62,626 nucleotides of DNA from Oscillospiraceae bacterium (lineage in GTDB: Bacteria; Bacillota; Clostridia; Oscillospirales; Oscillospiraceae), in NCBI GenBank assembly GCA_017458065.1, contig JAFTGD010000041.1:1-62626 (forward strand). Direction: 5' to 3'. The notes under the pieces are model-generated. The model was not told where the DNA came from. It ran no database searches and saw nothing but the letters and a program-made list of their open reading frames with translations. Below, in pieces: positions 356-62,361 of the stretch; the stretch's first letter is position 1; each line of letters starts with the position of its first letter. Made by a program: the position numbers and the translations under genes.

Positions 356-754
356 ATGCGAAAACGATATAACACGCCGCACCGCAGCCGGGTAGTCAAG
401 ACACGCATGACCGAGGAAGAATACGCCGAGTTTGCGGAAAGGCTTTCTGCTTACAACATGAGCCAAGCCGAGTTTATCCGGCAAGCCATAACCGGGGCAG
501 CCATACGCCCCATCATAACCGTTTCCCCCGTCAATGACGAGTTGCTTGCCGCTGTCGGGAAGCTGACCGCCGAATACGGCAGGATCGGCGGCAACTTAAA
601 CCAGATAGCCCGGACGCTGAACGAGTGGCACAGCCCCTACCCGCAGCTTGCCGGGGAGGTACGGGCGGCGGTTTCCGACCTTGCTGCCCTAAAGTTTGAA
701 GTCTTGCAGAAAGTGGGTGACGCTGTTGGCAACATTCAAACATATCAGCTCTAA
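356..754 (+). CDS. mobC: MobC-family relaxosome accessory protein
   Basis: A 132-residue protein predicted to bind oriT and help the relaxase nick DNA during mobilization. Residues about 12-48 look like a ribbon-helix-helix DNA-binding fold. Residues 75-90 carry the MobC hallmark GRIGGNLNQIARTLNE. The ATG at 356 is chosen because GAAGGAGG lies just upstream; the frame stays open further 5' but without an RBS. The 3' end overlaps the relaxase start, the usual translational coupling of mobC and relaxase genes. Confidence 0.9.
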   Translation: MRKRYNTPHRSRVVKTRMTEEEYAEFAERLSAYNMSQAEFIRQAITGAAIRPIITVSPVNDELLAAVGKLTAEYGRIGGNLNQIARTLNEWHSPYPQLAGEVRAAVSDLAALKFEVLQKVGDAVGNIQTYQL

Positions 755-2348
755 AAATGCGGACTATGGCGCAGCGGAAGCCTATCTCACATTTGAGCAT
801 GACGAGTTTACCATGAAGCCCACCCTTGATGAAAACGGGCGGCTGATACCGAGGGAGGATTACCGCATTTCTTCCCTCAACTGTGGGGGCGAGGATTTCG
901 CTGTTGCCTGTATGCGGGCTAATCTCCGCTATGAGAAAAACCAAAAACGGGAAGATGTGAAAAGCCACCACTATATCATCAGCTTTGACCCACGGGACGG
1001 GACAGACAACGGCTTGACCGTAGACCGGGCGCAGGAGCTGGGCGAGCAGTTCTGTAAAGAGCATTTCCCCGGACACCAAGCCTTAGTCTGCACCCACCCG
1101 GACGGGCATAACCACAGCGGCAATATCCATGTGCATATCGTCATCAACTCCCTGCGGATTTATGAAGTCCCGCTTCTGCCCTACATGGACAGACCAGCCG
1201 ACACACGGGAGGGCTGCAAGCACCGCTGCACCAACGCCGCTATGGAATATTTCAAGAGTGAAGTCATGGAGATGTGCCACCGGGAGGGGCTTTACCAAAT
1301 CGACCTCCTAAGCGGCAGCAAGGAACGGATAACCGAACGGGAATACTGGGCGGCAAAGAAAGGACAGCTTGCCCTTGATAAAGAGAACGCTGTCAGAGAA
1401 GCCGCAGGACAGCCGACCAAGCCCACCAAGTTTGAAACGGACAAGGCGAAGCTGCGCCGGACGATACGGCAGGCACTTTCCCAAGCTGGCAGCTTTGACG
1501 AATTTTCTTCCCTTTTGCTGCGGGAGGGTGTGACCGTCAAGGAGAGCCGGGGGCGGCTTTCCTACCTCACGCCGGACAGGACAAAGCCTATCACAGCCCG
1601 GAAGCTGGGGGACGATTTTGACAAGGCTGCTGTCCTTGTCCTGCTTACGCAGAACGCCCACAGAGCCGCCGAACAGAGCAAAGCCATACTCGAATACCCT
1701 GCCGCGGTTAAAAAGCTGTCACAAGGGGAAAAAACCACAAAAACCACCCCGGCAGACAACACCTTGCAGCGCATGGTTGACCGGGAAGCCAAGCGAGCCG
1801 AGGGCAAGGGCGTGGGCTATGACCGCTGGGCGGCAAAGCACAACCTAAAGCAAATGGCAGCTACCGTTACCGCCTATCAGCAGTACGGCTTTTCTTCCCC
1901 GGAGGAACTGGACGAAGCCTGTTCTGCCGCCTATACCGCCATGCGGGAAAGCCTTACAGAGCTGAAGCAGATGGAAAAGACGCTGAACGGGAAAAAGGAG
2001 CTGCAACGGCAGGTGCTTGCCTATTCCAAGACCCGCCCTGTCCGGGACGGGCTGAAACAGCAGAAAAACGCCAAAGCAAAAGCAGCCTACCGTCAGAAGT
2101 ACGAAAGCGACTTTATCATAGCAGACGCAGCCGCCCGCTATTTCAGGGAAAACGGCATTTCCAAGCTGCCGAGCTATAAAGCCCTGCAAGCAGAGATTGA
2201 AACCCTTATCCAAGAGAAAAACAGCGGCTACAACGATTACCGGGCAAAACGGGAGGAATACCGCCGCTTACAGACTGTCAAGGGCAATATCGACCAGATT
2301 TTACACCGGGAGCGCAAGCCTGTGAAAAGGCAGGAACAGGAACGATAA
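726..2348 (+). CDS. Relaxase / mobilization nuclease (TnpZ-like)
   Basis: About 540 residues. It is the strand-transfer nuclease that nicks oriT and pilots single-stranded DNA. The family's histidine cluster is seen near residues 119-141, in GHNHSGNIHVHIVINS, with an N-terminal Tyr-containing segment typical of the catalytic tyrosine. The C-terminal half is charged and helical. Start choice: TTG at 726 gives MATFKHISSKNADYG, the usual N-terminus of this family, and overlaps mobC by 29 bases; an in-frame ATG at 696 is the alternative. With mobC it forms the mobilization module of the element. Confidence 0.9.
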   Translation: MATFKHISSKNADYGAAEAYLTFEHDEFTMKPTLDENGRLIPREDYRISSLNCGGEDFAVACMRANLRYEKNQKREDVKSHHYIISFDPRDGTDNGLTVDRAQELGEQFCKEHFPGHQALVCTHPDGHNHSGNIHVHIVINSLRIYEVPLLPYMDRPADTREGCKHRCTNAAMEYFKSEVMEMCHREGLYQIDLLSGSKERITEREYWAAKKGQLALDKENAVREAAGQPTKPTKFETDKAKLRRTIRQALSQAGSFDEFSSLLLREGVTVKESRGRLSYLTPDRTKPITARKLGDDFDKAAVLVLLTQNAHRAAEQSKAILEYPAAVKKLSQGEKTTKTTPADNTLQRMVDREAKRAEGKGVGYDRWAAKHNLKQMAATVTAYQQYGFSSPEELDEACSAAYTAMRESLTELKQMEKTLNGKKELQRQVLAYSKTRPVRDGLKQQKNAKAKAAYRQKYESDFIIADAAARYFRENGISKLPSYKALQAEIETLIQEKNSGYNDYRAKREEYRRLQTVKGNIDQILHRERKPVKRQEQER

Positions 2349-2533
2349 AAACCGCCCCAAAATGTACCCGAACCTATACAGAACAAGGGGGCTGCCCCGT
2401 ACCCTATCCGCAAATACCAAAGGATTTTTTAACGGGCTTATAGGGCAGAAAAAACCCGAAAATGATACCGAGATGATACAGAATTACCGCCGATACCGCC
2501 ACACCAGCGGAAACGGCAGAAAGGAGCGCACCC

Positions 2534-2746
2534 ATGCCAAGAATGAGCAAGAAACGGCGGCTGGAATGGTCTTTTTTCCTGCGGCAAGTGAAAGTCGGGA
2601 ATTCCACCTGCGATCGTATCACATACAATGACCTCTGCCGGGGCTGTACCCATAGCTGCAAGCAGAGCTTCCGGGCGGTTATCATACTCTGCCCCCACTA
2701 CTACTCCAAACGCCGGAAAAAGGAGGACAGGGACAATGGCAGATAA
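2534..2746 (+). CDS. Small cysteine-containing conserved element protein
   Basis: 70 residues, very basic, with the pattern CRGCTHSCKQSFRAVI in the middle and a basic tail. Similar short proteins between relaxase and replication-initiator genes are, to my knowledge, common in elements of this type, which supports reality, but the function is unknown. The cysteines suggest a small metal-binding or nucleic-acid-binding protein (inference). The stop overlaps the next gene's start region (ATG at 2736), suggesting coupling. No strong RBS is seen. Confidence 0.6.
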   Translation: MPRMSKKRRLEWSFFLRQVKVGNSTCDRITYNDLCRGCTHSCKQSFRAVIILCPHYYSKRRKKEDRDNGR

Positions 2747-3485
2747 CCGCAAGTATTACTACCTCAAGCTGAAAGAGAACTTTTTTGACAGCGACTCCAT
2801 TGTGCTGCTGGAAGATATGAAAGACGGGATTTTATACTCCAATATCCTCTTGAAGCTGTACTTAAAATCGCTGAAAAACGGCGGGAAATTGCAGCTTGAC
2901 GAGCATATCCCCTACACAGCGCAGATGATAGCGACACTGACCCGCCACCAGATAGGGACGGTTGAGAGGGCTTTAGAGATTTTCCGGCAGTTGGGGCTTG
3001 TGGAGCAGCTTGACAGCGGGGCTTTCTATATGACCGACATTGAGCTGATGATAGGACAGTCCTCTACCGAAGCCGAGCGGAAACGGGCTGCAAGACTGGA
3101 AAACAAGGCACTTTTACCGCCCCGGACAAAAGGCGGACATTTGTCCGACATTCGTCCACCAGAGATAGAGATAGAGTTAGAGAAAGAGATAGAGATAGAA
3201 AAAGAGAGAGAGGGAGAAACGGGACACCCCGCCCCCGCCGCTTATGGCAGATACAACAATGTGATACTGACCGATACAGAGCTTTCCGGGCTAAAAACAG
3301 AGTTGCCCGACAAGTGGGAGTATTATATTGACCGGCTTTCCTGCCATATCGCTTCCACCGGGAAACAGTACCACAGCCATGCAGCCACCATTTACAAGTG
3401 GGCGCAGGAGGACGCTGCCAAAGGCAAGGCTGCCCCGAAACAGGGCATACCCGATTATTCATGCAAGGAGGGCGAGAGCTTATGA
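2736..3485 (+). CDS. Phage-type replisome organizer / replication initiator
   Basis: 249 residues. The N-terminal ~120 residues match the phage replisome-organizer type: KYYYLKLKENFF at the start, then a winged-helix-like segment. Such proteins bind an origin and recruit the helicase loader encoded next. A low-complexity Glu/Ile stretch (about residues 143-160) comes from a GAGATA-rich DNA repeat and links to the C-terminal domain. The start at 2736 is set by AAAGGAGG upstream. The stop overlaps the next start as ATGA. Together with the DnaC-like gene it suggests that the excised element can replicate. Confidence 0.8.
   Translation: MADNRKYYYLKLKENFFDSDSIVLLEDMKDGILYSNILLKLYLKSLKNGGKLQLDEHIPYTAQMIATLTRHQIGTVERALEIFRQLGLVEQLDSGAFYMTDIELMIGQSSTEAERKRAARLENKALLPPRTKGGHLSDIRPPEIEIELEKEIEIEKEREGETGHPAPAAYGRYNNVILTDTELSGLKTELPDKWEYYIDRLSCHIASTGKQYHSHAATIYKWAQEDAAKGKAAPKQGIPDYSCKEGESL
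3161..3215 (+). repeat. GAGATA-type microsatellite inside the initiator gene
   Basis: A purine-only run of imperfect GAGATA/GAGAAA units encodes alternating Glu-Ile/Glu-Lys in the interdomain linker of the replication initiator. Length changes in multiples of three would alter linker length and other changes would shift the frame. Seen directly in sequence. Confidence 0.7.
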
Positions 3486-4336
3486 AAAACGGAATTGAAG
3501 CTATGATTACGGACATTACAGCCACTACCGCCGAAGCGGAGGACTACACAGGCGAGGACGGGCTTTTATACTGCGGTAAGTGCCATACGCCCAAAGAAGC
3601 CTATTTTGCAGAGGGAAAGACTTGTTTCGGGCGTGACCGCCACCCGGCAGAGTGCGACTGCCAGCGGGCAGCCCGTGAAAAGCAGCAAGCCGCCGAAAGC
3701 CGACAGAAGCACCTTGAAAAAGTGGAGGACTTGAAACGCCGGGGCTTTACCGACCCTGCTATGCGGAACTGGACATTTGAGCATGACAACGGCAGAAACC
3801 CGCAGACCGAAACCGCCCGCTTTTATGTGGAGAGCTGGGAAACCATGCAGGCTGAAAATATCGGCTACCTGTTTTGGGGCGGCGTGGGGACGGGAAAAAG
3901 CTACCTTGCCGCCTGTATCGCCAACGCCCTTATGGAAAAAGAGGTTGCCGTCTGCATGACAAACTTTGCAACGATACTGGGTGACCTTGCCGCCAGCTTT
4001 GAGGGCAGGAACGAATATATTTCCCGCCTTTGCAGCTACCCTCTGCTGATACTTGATGATTTCGGTATGGAGCGAGGAACAGAATACGGGCTGGAACAGG
4101 TTTACAGCGTGATTGACAGCCGTTACCGAAGCGGCAAGCCGCTGATCGCCACGACCAACCTCACGCTGGAGGAATTGCAGCACCCGCAGGACACGCCCCA
4201 CGCCCGTATCTATGACAGGCTGACTTCCATGTGCGCCCCCGTCCGCTTCACGGGCAGCAACTTCCGAAAGGAAACCGCACAGGAAAAGCTGGAACGCTTA
4301 AAGCAACTGATGAAGCAGCGAAAGGAGAGCCTATGA
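3482..4336 (+). CDS. DnaC/IstB-like helicase-loader ATPase
   Basis: 284 residues from the ATG at 3482, which has AAGGAGGG upstream and overlaps the initiator stop. An N-terminal region has CGKCHTPKE and CDCQR cysteines, probably a zinc-binding module. It is followed by an AAA+ domain with Walker A GGVGTGKS and Walker B LLILDDFG, then ATTNLT (sensor) and an arginine-containing segment near RIYDRLTS. This arrangement is typical of DnaC-like helicase loaders of mobile elements, which load DnaB at the element origin. An upstream in-frame ATG at 3398 lies inside the previous gene and has no RBS. Confidence 0.88.
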   Translation: MKNGIEAMITDITATTAEAEDYTGEDGLLYCGKCHTPKEAYFAEGKTCFGRDRHPAECDCQRAAREKQQAAESRQKHLEKVEDLKRRGFTDPAMRNWTFEHDNGRNPQTETARFYVESWETMQAENIGYLFWGGVGTGKSYLAACIANALMEKEVAVCMTNFATILGDLAASFEGRNEYISRLCSYPLLILDDFGMERGTEYGLEQVYSVIDSRYRSGKPLIATTNLTLEELQHPQDTPHARIYDRLTSMCAPVRFTGSNFRKETAQEKLERLKQLMKQRKESL

Positions 4337-4521
4337 CAGAAACGAAACAGACAAGCACCACCAAAACAGACCGCCGCCCGGACTGTGTGACGGAAATCCG
4401 CATGGGCAACTCCGTCCTTACCGTTTCCGGCTTCTTCAAGCAGGGCGCAACCGACACCGCAGCCGACAAGATGATGAAAGTGCTGGAAGCGGAAGCTGCT
4501 ACACAAAAAACGGCGATTTGA
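4333..4521 (+). CDS. tnpW: TnpW-like transposon protein
   Basis: 62 residues, recognised as the TnpW family carried by Tn4451-type elements, function undetermined. The conserved block is TEIRMGNSVLTVSGFF followed by a short helix. The ATG at 4333 overlaps the ATPase stop (ATGA) and follows AAAGGAG. It is encoded just before the site-specific recombinase, the same order as in related elements. Confidence 0.8.
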   Translation: MTETKQTSTTKTDRRPDCVTEIRMGNSVLTVSGFFKQGATDTAADKMMKVLEAEAATQKTAI

Positions 4522-4563
4522 CCGACCATAAAGAAGCAGATTTGACGCTTTTGCCGCTATACA

Positions 4564-4616
4564 GACAGCCGCCCCATGTGGTACAATCAAGGTACGGAAT
4601 AGTGGGGCTGGCTGTC
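4564..4616 (+). promoter_or_regulatory. Long inverted repeat ahead of the recombinase
   Basis: GACAGCCGCCCCA (4564-4576) pairs with TGGGGCTGGCTGTC (4603-4616) with a single one-base bulge. The 26-base loop contains TACAAT (4582-4587), a good -10 hexamer, but I could not find a well-spaced -35. The recombinase RBS follows 9 bases later. It may be an operator, a transcript hairpin or a recombinase-binding site; the sequence alone does not decide. Confidence 0.5.
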
Positions 4617-4632
4617 GGAAACGGAGGATTTT

Positions 4633-6243
4633 ATGTTAAGACAGACCAACCAACAACCAATTACCGCCCTTTACCCAAGACTATCCCATGAGGACGAGCT
4701 GCAAGGCGAAAGCAATTCCATTTCCAATCAGAAGCGTATCCTTGAAACCTATGCAAAGCAGAACGGCTTTTCCAATCTGCGCTGGTACACGGACGACGGT
4801 TATTCTGGTGCGAACTTTCAAAGACCCGGTTTTCAAGCCATGCTTGCGGACATTGAAGCCGGAAAAGTCGGGACAGTTATCGTAAAGGATATGTCGAGGT
4901 TAGGGCGAAACTACCTGCAAGTGGGAATGTACACGGAAATGATTTTCCCACAGAAAGGTGTCCGCTTCATCGCTATCAATGACGGAGTGGACAGCGCACA
5001 GGGCGACAATGACTTTGCCCCGCTGCGGAATATCTTTAACGAATGGCTGGTGAGAGATACGAGCAAGAAAATCAAAGCAGTAAAACGCTCAAAAGGCATG
5101 AATGGCAAGCCCATCACAAGCAAGCCTGTGTATGGCTACCTCATGGACGAGGATGAAAATTTCATTATTGACGAGGAAGCTGCACCCGTAGTCAAGCAGA
5201 TATACAACCTCTGTCTTGCCGGGAATGGTCCGACCAAGATAGCCCGTATGCTCACAGAGCAGCAAATCCCCACGCCGGGAACGCTTGAATACCGCAGGAC
5301 GGGCAGCACCCGCCGCTACCACCCCGGCTATGAGTGCAAGTGGGCGACCAATACCGTAGTGCATATCCTTGAAAACCGGGAATACACAGGCTGTCTGGTA
5401 AATTTCAAGACAGAAAAACTTTCTTACAAAGTCAAGCACAGTGTAGAAAATCCCCCGGAAAAGCAAGTGATTTTCGAGAACCACCACGAGCCTATCATAG
5501 ACACCCAAACATGGGAACGGGTGCAGGAGCTTCGCAAACAGCGCAAACGCCCAAACCGCTATGATGAAGTGGGTTTGTTCTCCGGCATACTGTTCTGTGC
5601 GGACTGCGGCAGCGTGATGTATCAGCAGCGATACCAGACGGACAAGCGCAAGCAGGACTGTTATATCTGCGGCAACTACAAGAAACGCACCCATGACTGT
5701 ACGGCGCACTTTATCCGCACCGACCTCTTGACCGCTGGTGTACTCTCCAATCTGCGGAAAGTGACCAGCTATGCGGCAAAGCATGAAGCCCGGTTTATGA
5801 AACTCTTGATTGAGCAGAACGAGGACGGGGGCAAACGCAGGAACGCCGCCAAGAAAAAGGAACTGGAAGCCTCCGAGAAACGCATAGCCGAGTTATCCGC
5901 TATCTTCAAGCGGCTGTATGAGGACAGCGTGACCGGGCGCATATCAGACGAGCGTTTCACAGAGCTGTCGGCAGACTATGAAGCAGAGCAACGGGAGCTG
6001 AAAGAAAGAGCCGCTGCTATTCAAGCGGAGCTTTCCAAAGCACAGGAAGCCACCGTGAACGCAGAAAAGTTTATGAATGTTGTCCGGCGGCATACCAGCT
6101 TTGAAGAACTTACCCCTACTCTGCTGCGGGAGTTTGTAGAGAAAATCGTTGTGCATGAGTGCAGCTATGACGAGAACAAGACCCGCAGACAGGACATTGA
6201 GATTTATTATTCTTTTGTTGGCAAGGTGGACTTGCCCGAATAA
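4633..6243 (+). CDS. Large serine recombinase (TnpX/TndX-like integrase)
   Basis: 536 residues. It excises and integrates the element through a covalent serine intermediate. The N-terminal resolvase domain has ALYPRLSHEDE (catalytic Ser) and VKDMSRLGRNYLQVG; a Recombinase domain follows from about residue 165; a zinc ribbon FCADCGSVMYQQR...CYICGNYKKRTHDC lies near residues 325-360; a coiled coil follows (about 390-480). Full length for the family. ATG at 4633 follows ACGGAGG. Its position at the element end next to a disrupted tRNA fits an active or recently active integrase. Confidence 0.95.
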   Translation: MLRQTNQQPITALYPRLSHEDELQGESNSISNQKRILETYAKQNGFSNLRWYTDDGYSGANFQRPGFQAMLADIEAGKVGTVIVKDMSRLGRNYLQVGMYTEMIFPQKGVRFIAINDGVDSAQGDNDFAPLRNIFNEWLVRDTSKKIKAVKRSKGMNGKPITSKPVYGYLMDEDENFIIDEEAAPVVKQIYNLCLAGNGPTKIARMLTEQQIPTPGTLEYRRTGSTRRYHPGYECKWATNTVVHILENREYTGCLVNFKTEKLSYKVKHSVENPPEKQVIFENHHEPIIDTQTWERVQELRKQRKRPNRYDEVGLFSGILFCADCGSVMYQQRYQTDKRKQDCYICGNYKKRTHDCTAHFIRTDLLTAGVLSNLRKVTSYAAKHEARFMKLLIEQNEDGGKRRNAAKKKELEASEKRIAELSAIFKRLYEDSVTGRISDERFTELSADYEAEQRELKERAAAIQAELSKAQEATVNAEKFMNVVRRHTSFEELTPTLLREFVEKIVVHECSYDENKTRRQDIEIYYSFVGKVDLPE

Positions 6244-6251
6244 CCGCCCGA

Positions 6252-6300
6252 CCTATCCGACACAATGCGCAAGTGCCGGATAGGAACGGCAAAATTTTTT
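6252..6300 (+). terminator. Rho-independent terminator after the recombinase
   Basis: CCTATCCGACAC (6252-6263) pairs with GTGCCGGATAGG (6273-6284) with one mismatch around a 9-base loop. AAAATTTTTT follows at 6291-6300. Confidence 0.7.
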
Positions 6301-6577
6301 ACACTTCTATTACTTCTTTATCGCACATCAGTAAAATGGGCGGGGATCTTTCTGATACATGAAAAAAAGATTGATTATTTGAGCCTGTTGTGATAGGATA
6401 ATGGCACCGCAGAAAAACTCTACAAAAACTTTACGGGGTATATAAAAGACTTTACGGAGAGTTAAGAACAGTTAAGAAAGTTTAAGACGGCAAAAGCGGC
6501 GAGAGAGCTAAGAATTACGGAGATAGTTAAGATTATTCATTTCTGTTTAATTACAGATAAGAATAGTAAAAAAATAA
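6301..6577. repeat. Right end of the mobilizable element with short direct repeats
   Basis: AT-rich, no gene. It holds repeated short words: ACTTTACGG at about 6429 and 6450, and several GTTAAG/GTTTAAG copies between about 6460 and 6535. Such repeats sit where a large serine recombinase would bind its attachment site, but no binding site is defined. The boundary is placed where the sequence turns into the tRNA-Thr anticodon loop at 6578. Confidence 0.5.
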
Positions 6578-6622
6578 TTCGTAATCATGAGGTCGCGAGT
6601 TCGAATCTCGCATCCAGCTCCA
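6578..6622 (+). pseudogene. 3' half of tRNA-Thr(CGU), split by the element (attR)
   Basis: From TTCGTAA (anticodon loop, anticodon CGT) the sequence reads as a perfect tRNA 3' half: anticodon-stem strand TCATG, variable loop AGGTC, T arm GCGAG-TTCGAAT-CTCGC, acceptor strand ATCCAGC, discriminator T and encoded CCA. The 5' half (acceptor strand, D arm, CATGA anticodon strand) is absent upstream, where the mobile-element end lies instead. The element therefore appears integrated at the anticodon loop. The missing half should lie at the other element end, outside this window. The tRNA-Thr(UGU) at 17223 could read ACG by wobble. Confidence 0.8.
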
Positions 6623-6626
6623 AAAC

Positions 6627-6654
6627 AGCCGCGGGGAGAGCCTGCGGCTTTTTT
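6627..6654 (+). terminator. Terminator after the tRNA-Thr fragment
   Basis: AGCCGC (6627-6632) pairs with GCGGCT (6644-6649), followed by a T run to 6654. It would originally have ended the tRNA-Thr transcript. Confidence 0.75.
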
Positions 6655-6660
6655 CAAAAT

Positions 6661-6747
6661 GCCGGTGTGATGGAATGGTAGACGTGACGGACTCAAAATC
6701 CGTTGGGCTAATCCCCCGTGTGGGTTCGAGTCCCACCACCGGCACCA
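6661..6747 (+). tRNA. tRNA-Leu(CAA)
   Basis: 87 bases including encoded CCA. Acceptor GCCGGTG pairs with CACCGGC; the anticodon loop CTCAAAA gives anticodon CAA, reading UUG. The long variable arm (TGGGCTAATCCCCCGTG) and the T arm TGGG-TTCGAGT-CCCA are those of a class II leucine tRNA. Confidence 0.95.
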
Positions 6748-58103: not shown

Positions 58104-58105
58104 AT

Positions 58106-58138
58106 AAAAAAACGCTTGCCCAACATAAGACAAGCGCT
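58106..58138 (-). terminator. Attenuator-type terminator abutting tRNA-Ser
   Basis: Minus strand: CGCTTGTC (58136-58129) pairs with GGCAAGCG (58120-58113), followed by seven T (58112-58106) that end two bases before the tRNA 5' end. AGCGCT at 58157-58152 could pair instead with AGCGCT at 58138-58133, which overlaps the left arm of the terminator, so a mutually exclusive antiterminator is possible. Confidence 0.75.
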
Positions 58139-58182
58139 ACAGCACTAAAAAAGCGCTATATTTTCTTCGCCTTAAATGAGCA

Positions 58183-58242
58183 TCACAAATAAGCCGGGGA
58201 TGATGATCCGACTGATGATGCTGATGAAGCAAAGACAAACAT
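58183..58242 (-). CDS. Serine-codon-rich leader peptide
   Basis: 19-codon minus-strand frame reading MFVFASSASSVGSSSPAYL. Seven of 19 residues are Ser, six of them UCA, the codon read by the tRNA-Ser(UGA) 80 bases downstream. AAGGAG (58257-58252) lies 9 bases before the ATG and a promoter 33 bases before it. The codon bias and placement suggest a regulatory leader peptide whose translation senses charged tRNA-Ser. No protein function is claimed. Confidence 0.6.
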   Translation of the reverse strand: MFVFASSASSVGSSSPAYL

Positions 58243-58274
58243 ACGACAATACTCCTTGAGTTATGATCGTGATT

Positions 58275-58303
58275 ATTATAACAGACATGATCCTGCTTGT
58301 AAA
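58275..58303 (-). promoter_or_regulatory. Promoter of the leader peptide/tRNA-Ser unit
   Basis: Minus strand: TTTACA (58303-58298), 17 bases, TATAAT (58280-58275). Confidence 0.8.
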
Positions 58304-59294: not shown

Positions 59295-61364
59295 ATGGCA
59301 GAATATGATCTCTATAGAAGAGCAGAGGCAGTTCTGAAGAGAATGTACGGAGAAAAAGCGTCTTTTCGGGAAGGACAATTTGAGGCTATTGAAGCCACAA
59401 TGAATAATAGACGTTCTCTGATTGTCCAGAAAACTGGGTGGGGAAAAAGCCTGGTATACTTTATTTGCTGCACACTGCTGAAAGAAGACAATAAAGGGGC
59501 TACAATTGTTGTCAGTCCGTTGCTTGCCCTTATGGATAATCAGGTAGAAGCCGCTGAAAGGGCTGGTATACGCTGTGATTGCCTGAACAGTACAAAGAGA
59601 AGCAGGGAAAGACGAACTGCGATACTTGAGGAACTTGAAAACGGGGAGTTGGATCTGGTACTGGTTACCCCGGAAGGAGTTTTTAAAGACGATTTTCAAC
59701 AAACTCTCGCTAACACCGTAGTAGGATTATTTGTAATTGATGAGGCCCACTGCATTTCAGACTGGGGACACGACTTTCGTCTCGAATATGGAAGACTTAA
59801 TCAGGTAATATCTGCATTGCCGAGCAACGTCCGGCTACTTGGGACTACTGCAACTGCAAATGACAGAGTAGTGGAAGATCTGAAGAAACAGTTCGGAAAT
59901 AACGTGTATGTCTCTAGAGGTCCTCTTCTCAGGGACAACCTGTATATTCAGGTTCTCCAGATGCCGGACAGAGCTTCCCGATATGCATGGATGGTTGAAA
60001 ACATCCCAAAGCTGGAAGGTACCGGTATTGTATATTGCCTTACTTCTCGTGACTGCGATTATATAGCATCATATCTGAAAAAATATGGCATCAGTGCAGA
60101 GACGTATTATTCGGACATGGGTGACAAAGCCGATGAATCACTGGTGAAATTTCAGAGCAATGAGATAAAGGTTCTCGTGGCAACCATTAAGCTGGGGATG
60201 GGATATGACAAAGGTGATGTATCCTTTATTATCCATTACCAGATGCCTCAAAATATAGTTTCCTATTATCAGCAGATTGGCCGAGCCGGGAGAAATGTTG
60301 AAAAGGCATATACTTTTTTGATGATGGGGCAGGAAGATCAGAATATTATCGAATATTTTATCCGGACTGCCTTCCCCACAGAGAAAGAATTAATTGAAGT
60401 CAGGAAAACTGTTACAGAGCATAGCGGTATAAAAGCAAATCGCATGAGTCAGTATATCAATGCGCTGAAAACACGTGTTGATAAAGCTTTAAATTTCTTG
60501 GAACACGAAGGTTATATTCGCTATGACAATGGTTACTACAGTACTCCGAAACAGTTTGTTTATCAAAGAGAATACTACGAGCAGATCAAGACCATCCGTT
60601 ATCATGAAATGAGGCAAATGCAGGAATTGCAGGATCTGAAAAGCTGTTACAACCGATTCATTATTAATGCATTGGATGACAATACGGTGGGAGACTGTGG
60701 CTTCTGTGCATATTGTAGCGGAGAACAATTTTCTGGCGACGTGCAGCTGAATGACTTGAAAGAAGCACAAAAGTATCTTGAAAGCCTCCAAATGAAAATA
60801 GACCCAAGAAAAAGATGGCCTAAGATAGATGGTTTTTCTCATAGCAATAAGAATATACAGTTTAAAAATGATGAAGGGATCTGCCTCTGCAAGTATGGTG
60901 ATCCGGGCTATGGCATGCTTGTTAAAGAAGGAAAGTATCCGCCATTGTTACAGAAGCCGCACTTTTCAGATCGGCTTGTCGCGAAAAGTGCTCGGATACT
61001 GAAACCGGTCATTGAAGAGAAAGAAATAAAATATGTGACAGGAGTTCCATCCTTAAATTCCGATATCGTTCAGGATTTTGCACAGAGACTCGACTTAAGA
61101 TTGGGACTGCAGTACGTTCCAGTACTGGGAAAAATAAAGGCCTCTCCACAGAAGAGAATGGAAAACAGCAGCTTTCAGTGTTCCAATGCTCTGGAATCGT
61201 TTTATGTACTTGAAGGTGCTGTAATCCCAGATCGCGTGCTGTTGGTTGATGACATTGTGGATTCCAAGTGGACGCTTACGGTTTGTGGGTACCTTATAAT
61301 GTCGGAAGGCTGTGAAGAAGTATTCCCTTATGCCCTGGCGGACAGCAGCCAGAAGGAGGATTGA
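59295..61364 (+). CDS. RecQ-like helicase fused to a phosphoribosyltransferase domain
   Basis: 689 residues. Helicase core: Walker A KTGWGKSLVY (GKS at 50-52), VIDEAHCISDWGHDFR (DEAH ~149), LLGTTATAN, IVYCLTSRDCDYIASYLKKY, ATIKLGMGYDKGDV, and SYYQQIGRAGRN; then a RecQ-type zinc site with CGFCAYC after a helical region. The C-terminal part, from about 590, ends with RVLLVDDIVDSKWTLT (~648), a PRPP-loop motif of phosphoribosyltransferases (ComF/Apt-like). The typical RecQ HRDC domain is missing. Own promoter; the stop overlaps the RBS region of the DprA-like gene. Likely a mobile DNA-processing or defence gene rather than housekeeping RecQ. Confidence 0.88.
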   Translation: MAEYDLYRRAEAVLKRMYGEKASFREGQFEAIEATMNNRRSLIVQKTGWGKSLVYFICCTLLKEDNKGATIVVSPLLALMDNQVEAAERAGIRCDCLNSTKRSRERRTAILEELENGELDLVLVTPEGVFKDDFQQTLANTVVGLFVIDEAHCISDWGHDFRLEYGRLNQVISALPSNVRLLGTTATANDRVVEDLKKQFGNNVYVSRGPLLRDNLYIQVLQMPDRASRYAWMVENIPKLEGTGIVYCLTSRDCDYIASYLKKYGISAETYYSDMGDKADESLVKFQSNEIKVLVATIKLGMGYDKGDVSFIIHYQMPQNIVSYYQQIGRAGRNVEKAYTFLMMGQEDQNIIEYFIRTAFPTEKELIEVRKTVTEHSGIKANRMSQYINALKTRVDKALNFLEHEGYIRYDNGYYSTPKQFVYQREYYEQIKTIRYHEMRQMQELQDLKSCYNRFIINALDDNTVGDCGFCAYCSGEQFSGDVQLNDLKEAQKYLESLQMKIDPRKRWPKIDGFSHSNKNIQFKNDEGICLCKYGDPGYGMLVKEGKYPPLLQKPHFSDRLVAKSARILKPVIEEKEIKYVTGVPSLNSDIVQDFAQRLDLRLGLQYVPVLGKIKASPQKRMENSSFQCSNALESFYVLEGAVIPDRVLLVDDIVDSKWTLTVCGYLIMSEGCEEVFPYALADSSQKED

Positions 61365-61365
61365 C

Positions 61366-62361
61366 ATGACGGATAATTCGAAAGCCATTGCTGTTTTTTG
61401 TAGCGCCTTGGCAGTTGGAAATGAGGTAAAACCACTGGAACCAAGGAAGTGGAGCGAAATTGCGGCTAAATTGCTGGAGCAGAATCGGCAACCGGCAGAT
61501 CTGCTGAACAGCACAAAACAGGACTTTATAGAAGAACTTGGCGTTTCAGCGCGACAGGCTGAACAGATGGAAAAACTGCTTTGCAGAAGTGTTGCGCTTG
61601 CCTTTGAGATCAGCAAATATGAAAACGAGGGTATTGAGATCGTTACCCGTGCAGATAAAACCTATCCCCTAAAATTGAAAAAGAAACTAGGAAATCATTG
61701 CCCACCCATGTTTTATTGTGCCGGTAATCTGGAACTTTTGCATCGCCCGGTGTTTGGTTTTGTGGGATCAAGAAATATCAGCTTTGACGATGAGGATTAT
61801 ACAAGAAAAGCAGTACATATGATTTCTCAAAATCAAAAATTTGGTGTCGTTACTGGTGGGGCAAAAGGTGTCGACAGCGTTTCAGCAAGTGAAGCACTTA
61901 ATCTTGGACTTCCGGTCGTTGAATACATTTCTGATTCGATGCTCAGAAAAATGCGAAATGCAAAAATGATTTCATCCCTGCAGAACGGTAATATGCTAAT
62001 ACTTTCCGAAGTGAAACCGGATGCAGGCTTTAACGCCGGAATGGCTATGGCCAGAAACAAATATATTTACGTCCAATCTGAGGCGACTATTGTTGTCAGG
62101 TCGGATCTTAATCATGGCGGTACCTGGAGCGGGGCTACAGAATGTCTGAAAAAACAATGGGTGCCAGTACTTTGTCGAAAAAGAGAAGATTATCCTGGGA
62201 ATATGGCATTGATTGAAAAAGGAGCTGTGCCAATTGGCGAGGCATGGGACGGAACAATTCCTGCACTTGAATTGAAAGAGAAAAACGCTCTTCACCCGGA
62301 TAATAAAGAGAAGCAGGAAGAAAGTCTTGCTACGGAACAGATTAGCCTGTTTGACGTGTAA
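61366..62361 (+). CDS. DprA-like (SLOG-fold) protein
   Basis: 331 residues. A helical N-terminal region with LGVSARQAEQMEKLL (HhH-like), then a DprA/Smf-type Rossmann fold: FGFVGSRNISF (~131), VVTGGAKGVDSVSASEAL (~162), a later GGTWSGATE (~250), and a C-terminal tail. No winged-helix C-terminus of canonical DprA is seen. ATG at 61366 with GGAGGA upstream, one base after the helicase stop, so co-translated with it. In conflict systems SLOG proteins often bind nucleotides; in transformation DprA loads RecA. Which applies here is unknown. Confidence 0.85.
   Translation: MTDNSKAIAVFCSALAVGNEVKPLEPRKWSEIAAKLLEQNRQPADLLNSTKQDFIEELGVSARQAEQMEKLLCRSVALAFEISKYENEGIEIVTRADKTYPLKLKKKLGNHCPPMFYCAGNLELLHRPVFGFVGSRNISFDDEDYTRKAVHMISQNQKFGVVTGGAKGVDSVSASEALNLGLPVVEYISDSMLRKMRNAKMISSLQNGNMLILSEVKPDAGFNAGMAMARNKYIYVQSEATIVVRSDLNHGGTWSGATECLKKQWVPVLCRKREDYPGNMALIEKGAVPIGEAWDGTIPALELKEKNALHPDNKEKQEESLATEQISLFDV

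Follow-up and report, generated by a model that had tools for sequence, protein, structure and literature searches.

A Possible Leader-Peptide Attenuator with UCA Control Codons Upstream of an Accessory tRNA-Ser(UGA) Gene in an Oscillospiraceae Genome

We describe a minus-strand unit in which a short open reading frame rich in the serine codon UCA and an intrinsic terminator directly precede a gene for tRNA-Ser(UGA), the tRNA that reads UCA. Taking the sequence features together with modeling of the growing transcript, we somewhat favor the interpretation that this arrangement is a leader-peptide attenuator, which would control an island-borne, accessory tRNA-Ser(UGA) gene and the secreted-protein gene that follows it. 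The mechanism is a known one; its target here, the tRNA that reads the control codon itself, is apparently undescribed. Bacterial tRNA genes are usually viewed as being controlled in bulk by growth rate. If the proposed control is real, codon reading as measured by the ribosome would act as direct feedback on one tRNA, and a mobile element could bring along a spare tRNA and keep it off until required.

The window analyzed is a stretch of 62,626 bases, which is contig C18 of a 3.6 Mb genome assembled in 83 contigs (96.4% complete, 2.9% contaminated). The features of interest are collected in Table 1.

Results and Discussion

Organization of the tRNA-Ser(UGA) Unit

On the minus strand, the unit runs from a promoter through a ribosome-binding site, the UCA-rich frame, a terminator, the tRNA gene and the secreted-protein gene to a closing terminator. 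The original prediction of a promoter, an AAGGAG, a 19-codon frame with six UCA codons and a seven-U terminator ending two bases before the tRNA held up when the coordinates were re-read (the bases AT separate the last U from the tRNA 5' end). An intrinsic terminator thus lies between the leader frame and its putative target. The tRNA gene had been named as that target, and while the terminator does stand directly before it, the unit also holds the secreted-protein gene, which may be a second target.

Table 1. Features of the tRNA-Ser(UGA) unit and its surroundings, in window coordinates
Feature	Position	Strand	Details
Sigma-70-type promoter TTTACA-17-TATAAT	-35 58303-58298; -10 58280-58275	minus	11/12 consensus; TG before -10
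Shine-Dalgarno AAGGAG	58257-58252	minus	9 nt before ATG
Leader frame MFVFASSASSVGSSSPAYL, then stop	58242-58183	minus	19 codons, six UCA
Protector helix 1:2	58235-58215 with 58186-58164	minus	predicted when the frame is ribosome-free
Antiterminator	58182-58165 with 58134-58117	minus	15 bp; predicted with the ribosome in codons 5-7
Hairpin A UAUAGCGCUUUUUUAGUGCUGUA	58160-58138	minus	common to both predicted states; nested inside the antiterminator
Intrinsic terminator	58137-58104	minus	stem 58137-58112, 10 pairs, -14.5 kcal/mol; seven U 58112-58106
tRNA-Ser(UGA)	58103-58013	minus	ARAGORN; Rfam tRNA 51 bits; CCA encoded
Secreted-protein gene, 367 residues	57966-56863	minus	signal peptide by eye; GTG start behind AGGAGG
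Closing intrinsic terminator of the unit	56824-56795	minus	-17.3 kcal/mol
PsyrT/PsyrA defence-type toxin-antitoxin pair	59295-61364; 61312-62361	+	PADLOC models 9.1e-226, 3.8e-91
Relaxase and large serine recombinase genes	696-6747		Pfam 1.3e-14, Pfam 4.2e-27

The promoter is the top match within the 260 nt upstream of the tRNA, and shuffling the 397 nt that precede the tRNA gave a match of 11/12 or better in only 23 of 3000 cases. Its -10 element ends 171 nt before the tRNA with a terminator intervening, compared to 12-47 nt upstream for the other four tRNA-Ser genes of this genome.

Behind this promoter, the leader frame has its own ribosome-binding site, these being features of the sequence from which translation is predicted. 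Codons 6, 7, 9, 10, 13 and 14 are UCA, and there is one UCC. UCA therefore accounts for 6/7 of the serine codons in the leader, compared with 24/690 across 22 host ORFs and 12/112 across three ORFs of the island (both sets were hand-picked from the ORF list of the window, and are not annotated genes), an enrichment of the control codon above local usage. When the 200-nt leader was dinucleotide-shuffled, 8 of 20000 sequences contained a short frame with at least six UCA codons. Such shuffles do not model simple repeats, however, and the three TCATCA blocks may derive from one that has been interrupted. The proposal that stalling on UCA would let transcription reach the tRNA is supported by UCA being the rarest serine codon in the host set, and by our finding no frame of 60 or more codons between promoter and terminator on the minus strand. 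On the latter ground, we also rejected the idea that the terminator is simply the end of an upstream gene, shorter frames being present there.

Predicted Folds of the Leader and the Effect of Ribosome Position

In the mechanism that we propose, ribosomes passing freely would leave region 1 (in the frame) to pair with region 2 (after the stop codon), and the terminator would form. A ribosome waiting on UCA codon 6 or 7 would instead cover region 1, so that region 2 could pair with the 5' arm and loop of the terminator while the latter is being synthesized, and the polymerase would pass. Regions 1 to 4 would be arranged as in classical attenuators. The signal would be a shortage of the charged form of tRNA-Ser(UGA), which reads UCA. 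Such a shortage might arise if the host tRNA is cleaved or damaged, if demand exceeds supply, or if charging fails, and the tRNA produced would restore UCA reading, closing a negative feedback loop.

The 147-nt leader folds with z = -5.95, and none of 200 shuffles folded as well. To follow the transcript as it is made, growing transcripts were folded with a ribosome footprint placed at each codon (15 nt upstream, and 12 nt from the first A-site base). At a transcript length of 155, the probability of the terminator was 0.79 in the ribosome-free state and 0.76 when a ribosome stood at the stop codon, and fell to 0.00 and 0.03 with UCA6 and UCA7, respectively, in the A site. The 5' arm of the terminator was then paired upstream with probabilities of 0.68 (UCA6) and 0.66 (UCA7), its predicted partner being the 18 nt directly after the leader stop codon. 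The corresponding values were 0.37 for UCA9, 0.27 for UCA10, 0.20 for UCA13, 0.05 for UCA14, 0.69 for codon 5 (Ala) and 0.41-0.55 for codons 2-4. The UCA codons at 9-10 and 13-14 are thus weakly effective, and the alanine codon 5 equals codons 6-7. At a length of 157 nt, an effect above 0.05 was left only at codons 5-7, where it was reduced to 0.27, 0.30 and 0.08.

As a measure for shuffling, we took the weaker of the codon 6 and codon 7 effects against the less favorable of the free and stop states. None of 2000 shuffles of the segment from stop codon to terminator reached the switch, whether scored on the terminator or on the antiterminator, and the counts rose to 5 (terminator) and 7 (antiterminator) of 2000 when frame and segment were shuffled together, and to 23 and 14 of 2000 when the frame codons were permuted. 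An earlier measure based on codon 6 only gave 1 and 0 of 400 segment shuffles. That the predicted switch is largely restricted to codons 5-7, and is rare in shuffles, lends further support to the stalling idea. Across five footprint sizes, the effect of codon 6 was kept in all five and that of codon 7 in three; with the two largest (14-15 nt from the first A-site base), the codon 7 effect was lost and one at codon 4 was gained.

Three attenuators of E. coli K-12 served as controls. For pheM, the scan switches at Phe 10, Phe 12 and the intervening Tyr 11; for trpL, there is a weak and early switch around Trp 11 and its neighbors; and for hisL, a true attenuator, no switch was seen. The stall scan therefore misses true attenuators. 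The signal in the window is comparable to that of pheM, being stronger at the control codons when two bases of the stem are still missing, whereas with the stem complete the Tyr codon of pheM, at 0.49, exceeds the best value of 0.30 in the window.

The exclusive antiterminator released by stalling is predicted in growing transcripts, and is absent at equilibrium on the full leader. With the leader complete and a ribosome at codon 6, the terminator is still favored (P = 0.81), and the whole-leader equilibrium fold has the terminator for every ribosome position. With the tRNA included, the cloverleaf combined with the terminator (-73.8 kcal/mol) beats its combination with the antiterminator (-70.7 kcal/mol) by 3.1 kcal/mol, and if the antiterminator is imposed without constraining the tRNA, the cloverleaf is open in the best fold. 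As the full-length fold favors the terminator, the switch must be kinetic, acting while the terminator is being made. Other attenuators likewise act during terminator synthesis. The original prediction had assigned the breaking of the terminator to an AGCGCT-AGCGCT pairing. This complementarity exists in the sequence, but as an antiterminator it comprises only 6 bp, and it was never the favored fold in the predictions examined.

An Accessory tRNA on a Foreign-Looking Island

The window tRNA is intact and has an unusual acceptor, GGCGCUG/CAGCGCC, forming a 7-bp stem. There are 40 tRNA matches in the genome, among which the serine tRNAs are GGA, CGA, GCU, a UGA copy on contig C28, and the UGA copy of the window. 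The two UGA copies are identical in 66 of 94 aligned columns and share the seven-base anticodon loop CUUGAAA, an identity that gives no hint of nuclease resistance. The 1.9-kb neighborhood of the C28 copy is matched in 49 of 61 genus genomes (own included), the match usually covering the tRNA itself, with an identity mostly of 80-98%, and tRNA-Ser(UGA) is held by all ten genus loci inspected, nine of which were chosen for a second partial match. Judged by these comparisons, the C28 gene is the ordinary housekeeping copy and that of the window a divergent, accessory second copy. The tRNA made here had been described as the one needed to read UCA, but it is not the only UCA reader of the cell. 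Since the housekeeping gene is present, the window copy can afford being off.

In nine of the ten genus loci (L362-L370 among the ten), a 5' copy of tRNA-Ser(UGA), of about 45 nt and reaching to the anticodon stem, ends about 150 nt upstream of the intact gene. The spacers between partial and intact genes in L362-L370 resemble a short repeated element, of which L363 seems to hold more than one unit, and similar tRNA halves precede tRNA-Ser(CGA) in two other loci (L004, L045). These repeats may be small elements that, on inserting into a tRNA-Ser gene, restore it. That the window tRNA is itself an integration scar was considered and rejected: with up to 3 mismatches allowed, its 3' end has a single occurrence in the window.

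The GC content around the window tRNA is 0.42-0.44, down from 0.60-0.65 alongside, and the unit apparently sits on a foreign-looking, low-GC island. The surroundings of the unit look decayed: short frames lie at 58.5-59.2 kb, one of which gives a sub-threshold Resolvase match (E 0.0097). Adjoining the tRNA unit, and divergent from it, is the PsyrT/PsyrA pair, comprising a RecQ-like helicase and a DprA-like partner. A search of the genome for VapC-like toxins gave one PIN match, the frame of which holds one stop codon. At the far end of the window, the relaxase and recombinase genes belong to a mobilisable element, the recombinase gene ending about 400 nt before a tRNA-Leu(CAA), and an Rfam search places an S10 leader of the Clostridia type elsewhere in the window, pointing to a host among the Clostridia.

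A replacement tRNA would be just such an additional copy of a host tRNA, carried on foreign DNA, and the island setting suits an accessory tRNA that is off until needed and then supplements a scarce host tRNA or takes its place. We put forward, tentatively and with more doubt than confidence, that this is a mobile rescue tRNA, which would be kept silent by the UCA attenuator and released when UCA is no longer read fast enough, for example after loss of the host tRNA-Ser(UGA) to a toxin or defence nuclease. To our knowledge, this would be the first known tRNA gene under leader-peptide attenuation. Weighing on the other side, mycobacteriophages are said in PMC10264068 to avoid tRNA-Ser(UGA), because the anticodon is where it is cut, and to carry tRNA-Ser(gct) instead; this weakens the rescue interpretation and speaks against the window tRNA being a nuclease-proof spare.

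The Secreted-Protein Gene and Alternative Targets

Between the tRNA and the start of the secreted-protein gene lie 46 nt, in which neither a terminator nor a promoter was matched. This continuity argues for an alternative in which the attenuator is real but serves the secreted protein, or responds to general serine starvation or to inhibition of seryl-tRNA synthetase, with the tRNA being a passenger in the operon. The protein, for which neither Pfam nor NCBIfam gives a match, is rich in serine (12.8%, 47/366 codons), and UCN codons of B. subtilis are reported in PMC3862929 to be responsive to serine starvation, a theory of codon choice being given in PMC1183508. However, UCA makes up only 4 of the 47 serine codons, and an extra tRNA would be of no help were serine itself missing. 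Homologues of the protein occur in 7 of 300 family genomes including its own, the six others at 24-28% identity, and none of these six has a tRNA within the fetched flanks, indicating that elsewhere the protein needs no such leader. We consider a passenger tRNA unlikely, but it comes first among the alternatives to the attenuation of the accessory tRNA.

Search for Relatives of the Leader

No relative with the leader was found when leader and tRNA were searched together among 102 genus, 300 family and 391 class genomes. Non-self matches were obtained in 1/102 genus genomes, 3/61 of an overlapping genus draw, 5/300 family genomes and 7/391 class genomes, all of them falling in the tRNA and extending no further than 8 bases into the leader; of the five family matches, three are arrays of tRNA-Cys/Gly/Phe, and not tRNA-Ser. 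At E <= 0.001, the same query gave no phage match and one plasmid match, confined to the tRNA, and the leader by itself gave no plasmid match and five phage matches of 24-29 bases at E 0.7. Exact patterns of the tRNA 5' end had no hits in either viral or genome contigs.

We also searched by architecture. The composite pattern of UCA UCA, a gap, T5 and tRNA-Ser matched 41 loci in the genome collection, with tRNA-Ser(UGA) in four of them (L059, L061, L078, L098). None of the 41 holds a frame with more than four UCA codons, the best of the four tRNA-Ser(UGA) loci having four in a 47-codon frame (L059), and no hairpin ending at the T run was seen by eye in these four. In viral contigs, T6 followed by a strict tRNA-Ser(UGA) pattern gave a single locus, within a tRNA cluster. 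With T5 and a looser tRNA pattern, at least 119 new loci were found, 29 of them with tRNA-Ser(UGA) among the matches listed; a hairpin of -12 kcal/mol or better stands at the T run in 3 of these 29 (L114, L139, L203), and no frame with more than two UCA codons lies upstream of any of them. Among the matches listed for the composite pattern in viral contigs (at least 119 new loci), no tRNA-Ser stands behind the pattern.

Hairpins before other tRNA genes were observed in the same searches. One viral contig (L122) has, immediately in front of a tRNA-Asp(GUC) at about 12112, a terminator hairpin (-16.8 kcal/mol) that follows a 33-codon frame containing five Asp codons; this is a possible but weak parallel to the UCA leader. 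Four further viral loci (L125, L187, L198, L209), out of nine tRNA-Cys places among the 119 viral loci listed, have hairpins of -14.6 to -19.4 kcal/mol at the T run directly before tRNA-Cys(GCA). In Methylophilus, nine loci (L063, L066, L067, L079, L081, L085, L088, L092, L099) carry the hairpin CCGCGATAATCGCGG directly upstream of tRNA-Tyr, with one base different in L079. We do not count these as parallels, as by eye they appear to overlap the -10 element of that gene's own promoter.

The proposed attenuator is weakened chiefly by the leader being a lone example, which is compatible with function in a single mobile element. The failure to find relatives also speaks for the next alternative, namely that nothing here is regulated, and that a TCA simple repeat, the ordinary terminator of a decayed element, and a foreign tRNA that is off or decaying have come together by chance. 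The decayed look of the island points in this direction as well, as does the whole leader, which terminates at equilibrium. Against chance stand the intact tRNA, the lack of an upstream minus-strand frame of 60 or more codons that would need the terminator, and the UCA frame, promoter and fold switch, each of which is rare in shuffles. Chance ranks just behind the passenger tRNA, and we likewise find it improbable. Finally, attenuation through another frame or sensor, such as a small RNA ending before the tRNA or a His-rich +1 frame (TTG 58238 to 58137) that reads the repeat as His codons and to which the folding calculations are blind, is very improbable, since its TTG lies 13 nt from the AAGGAG compared to 9 nt for the ATG, the +1 frame extends to the first base of the terminator stem so that its ribosomes would disturb the fold, and, the tRNA aside, no Rfam family reaches its gathering score in the leader.

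Comparison with Known Systems

Among the titles and opening lines of abstracts in PMC, a scope outside which most subscription papers fall, we found no leader-peptide attenuation of a tRNA gene. The closest system in form is E. coli pheM-pheST, which shares with the window a short frame rich in control codons, mutually exclusive antiterminator and terminator structures, and comparable behavior in the stall scan. It controls a component of tRNA charging, the synthetase operon, where the window has a tRNA gene. The function of the pheM-pheST attenuator is established.

In Firmicutes, T-boxes are the usual solution, with read-through set by tRNA charging. A T-box senses uncharged tRNA directly, and the T-box covariance model has no match in the leader. 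Ordinary leader-peptide attenuation does occur in Firmicutes, as for the His leader peptides of Bacillus hisS paralogues described in PMC2965389. These leaders differ in using His codons and preceding synthetase genes, and are backed by similar 5' regions in two paralogue groups. The same text cites repeats attenuating a tRNA reporter, and the phrase "tRNA gene" is absent from it.

As regards the cargo, the nearest likeness is to phage tRNAs that replace nuclease-cut host tRNAs, which are also accessory tRNAs on foreign DNA (PMC10264068 and PMC11555353). The former lists tRNA-Ser(tga) among the serine tRNAs cut by known nucleases and proposes that cut host tRNAs are replaced by phage tRNAs, and toxins acting on serine tRNAs are reported in PMC10945364 and PMC11541572. 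In PMC11555353, a retron is defeated by a phage tRNA-Tyr, for which a strong promoter is reported and stressed, whereas the tRNA of the window would be off until UCA decoding fails.
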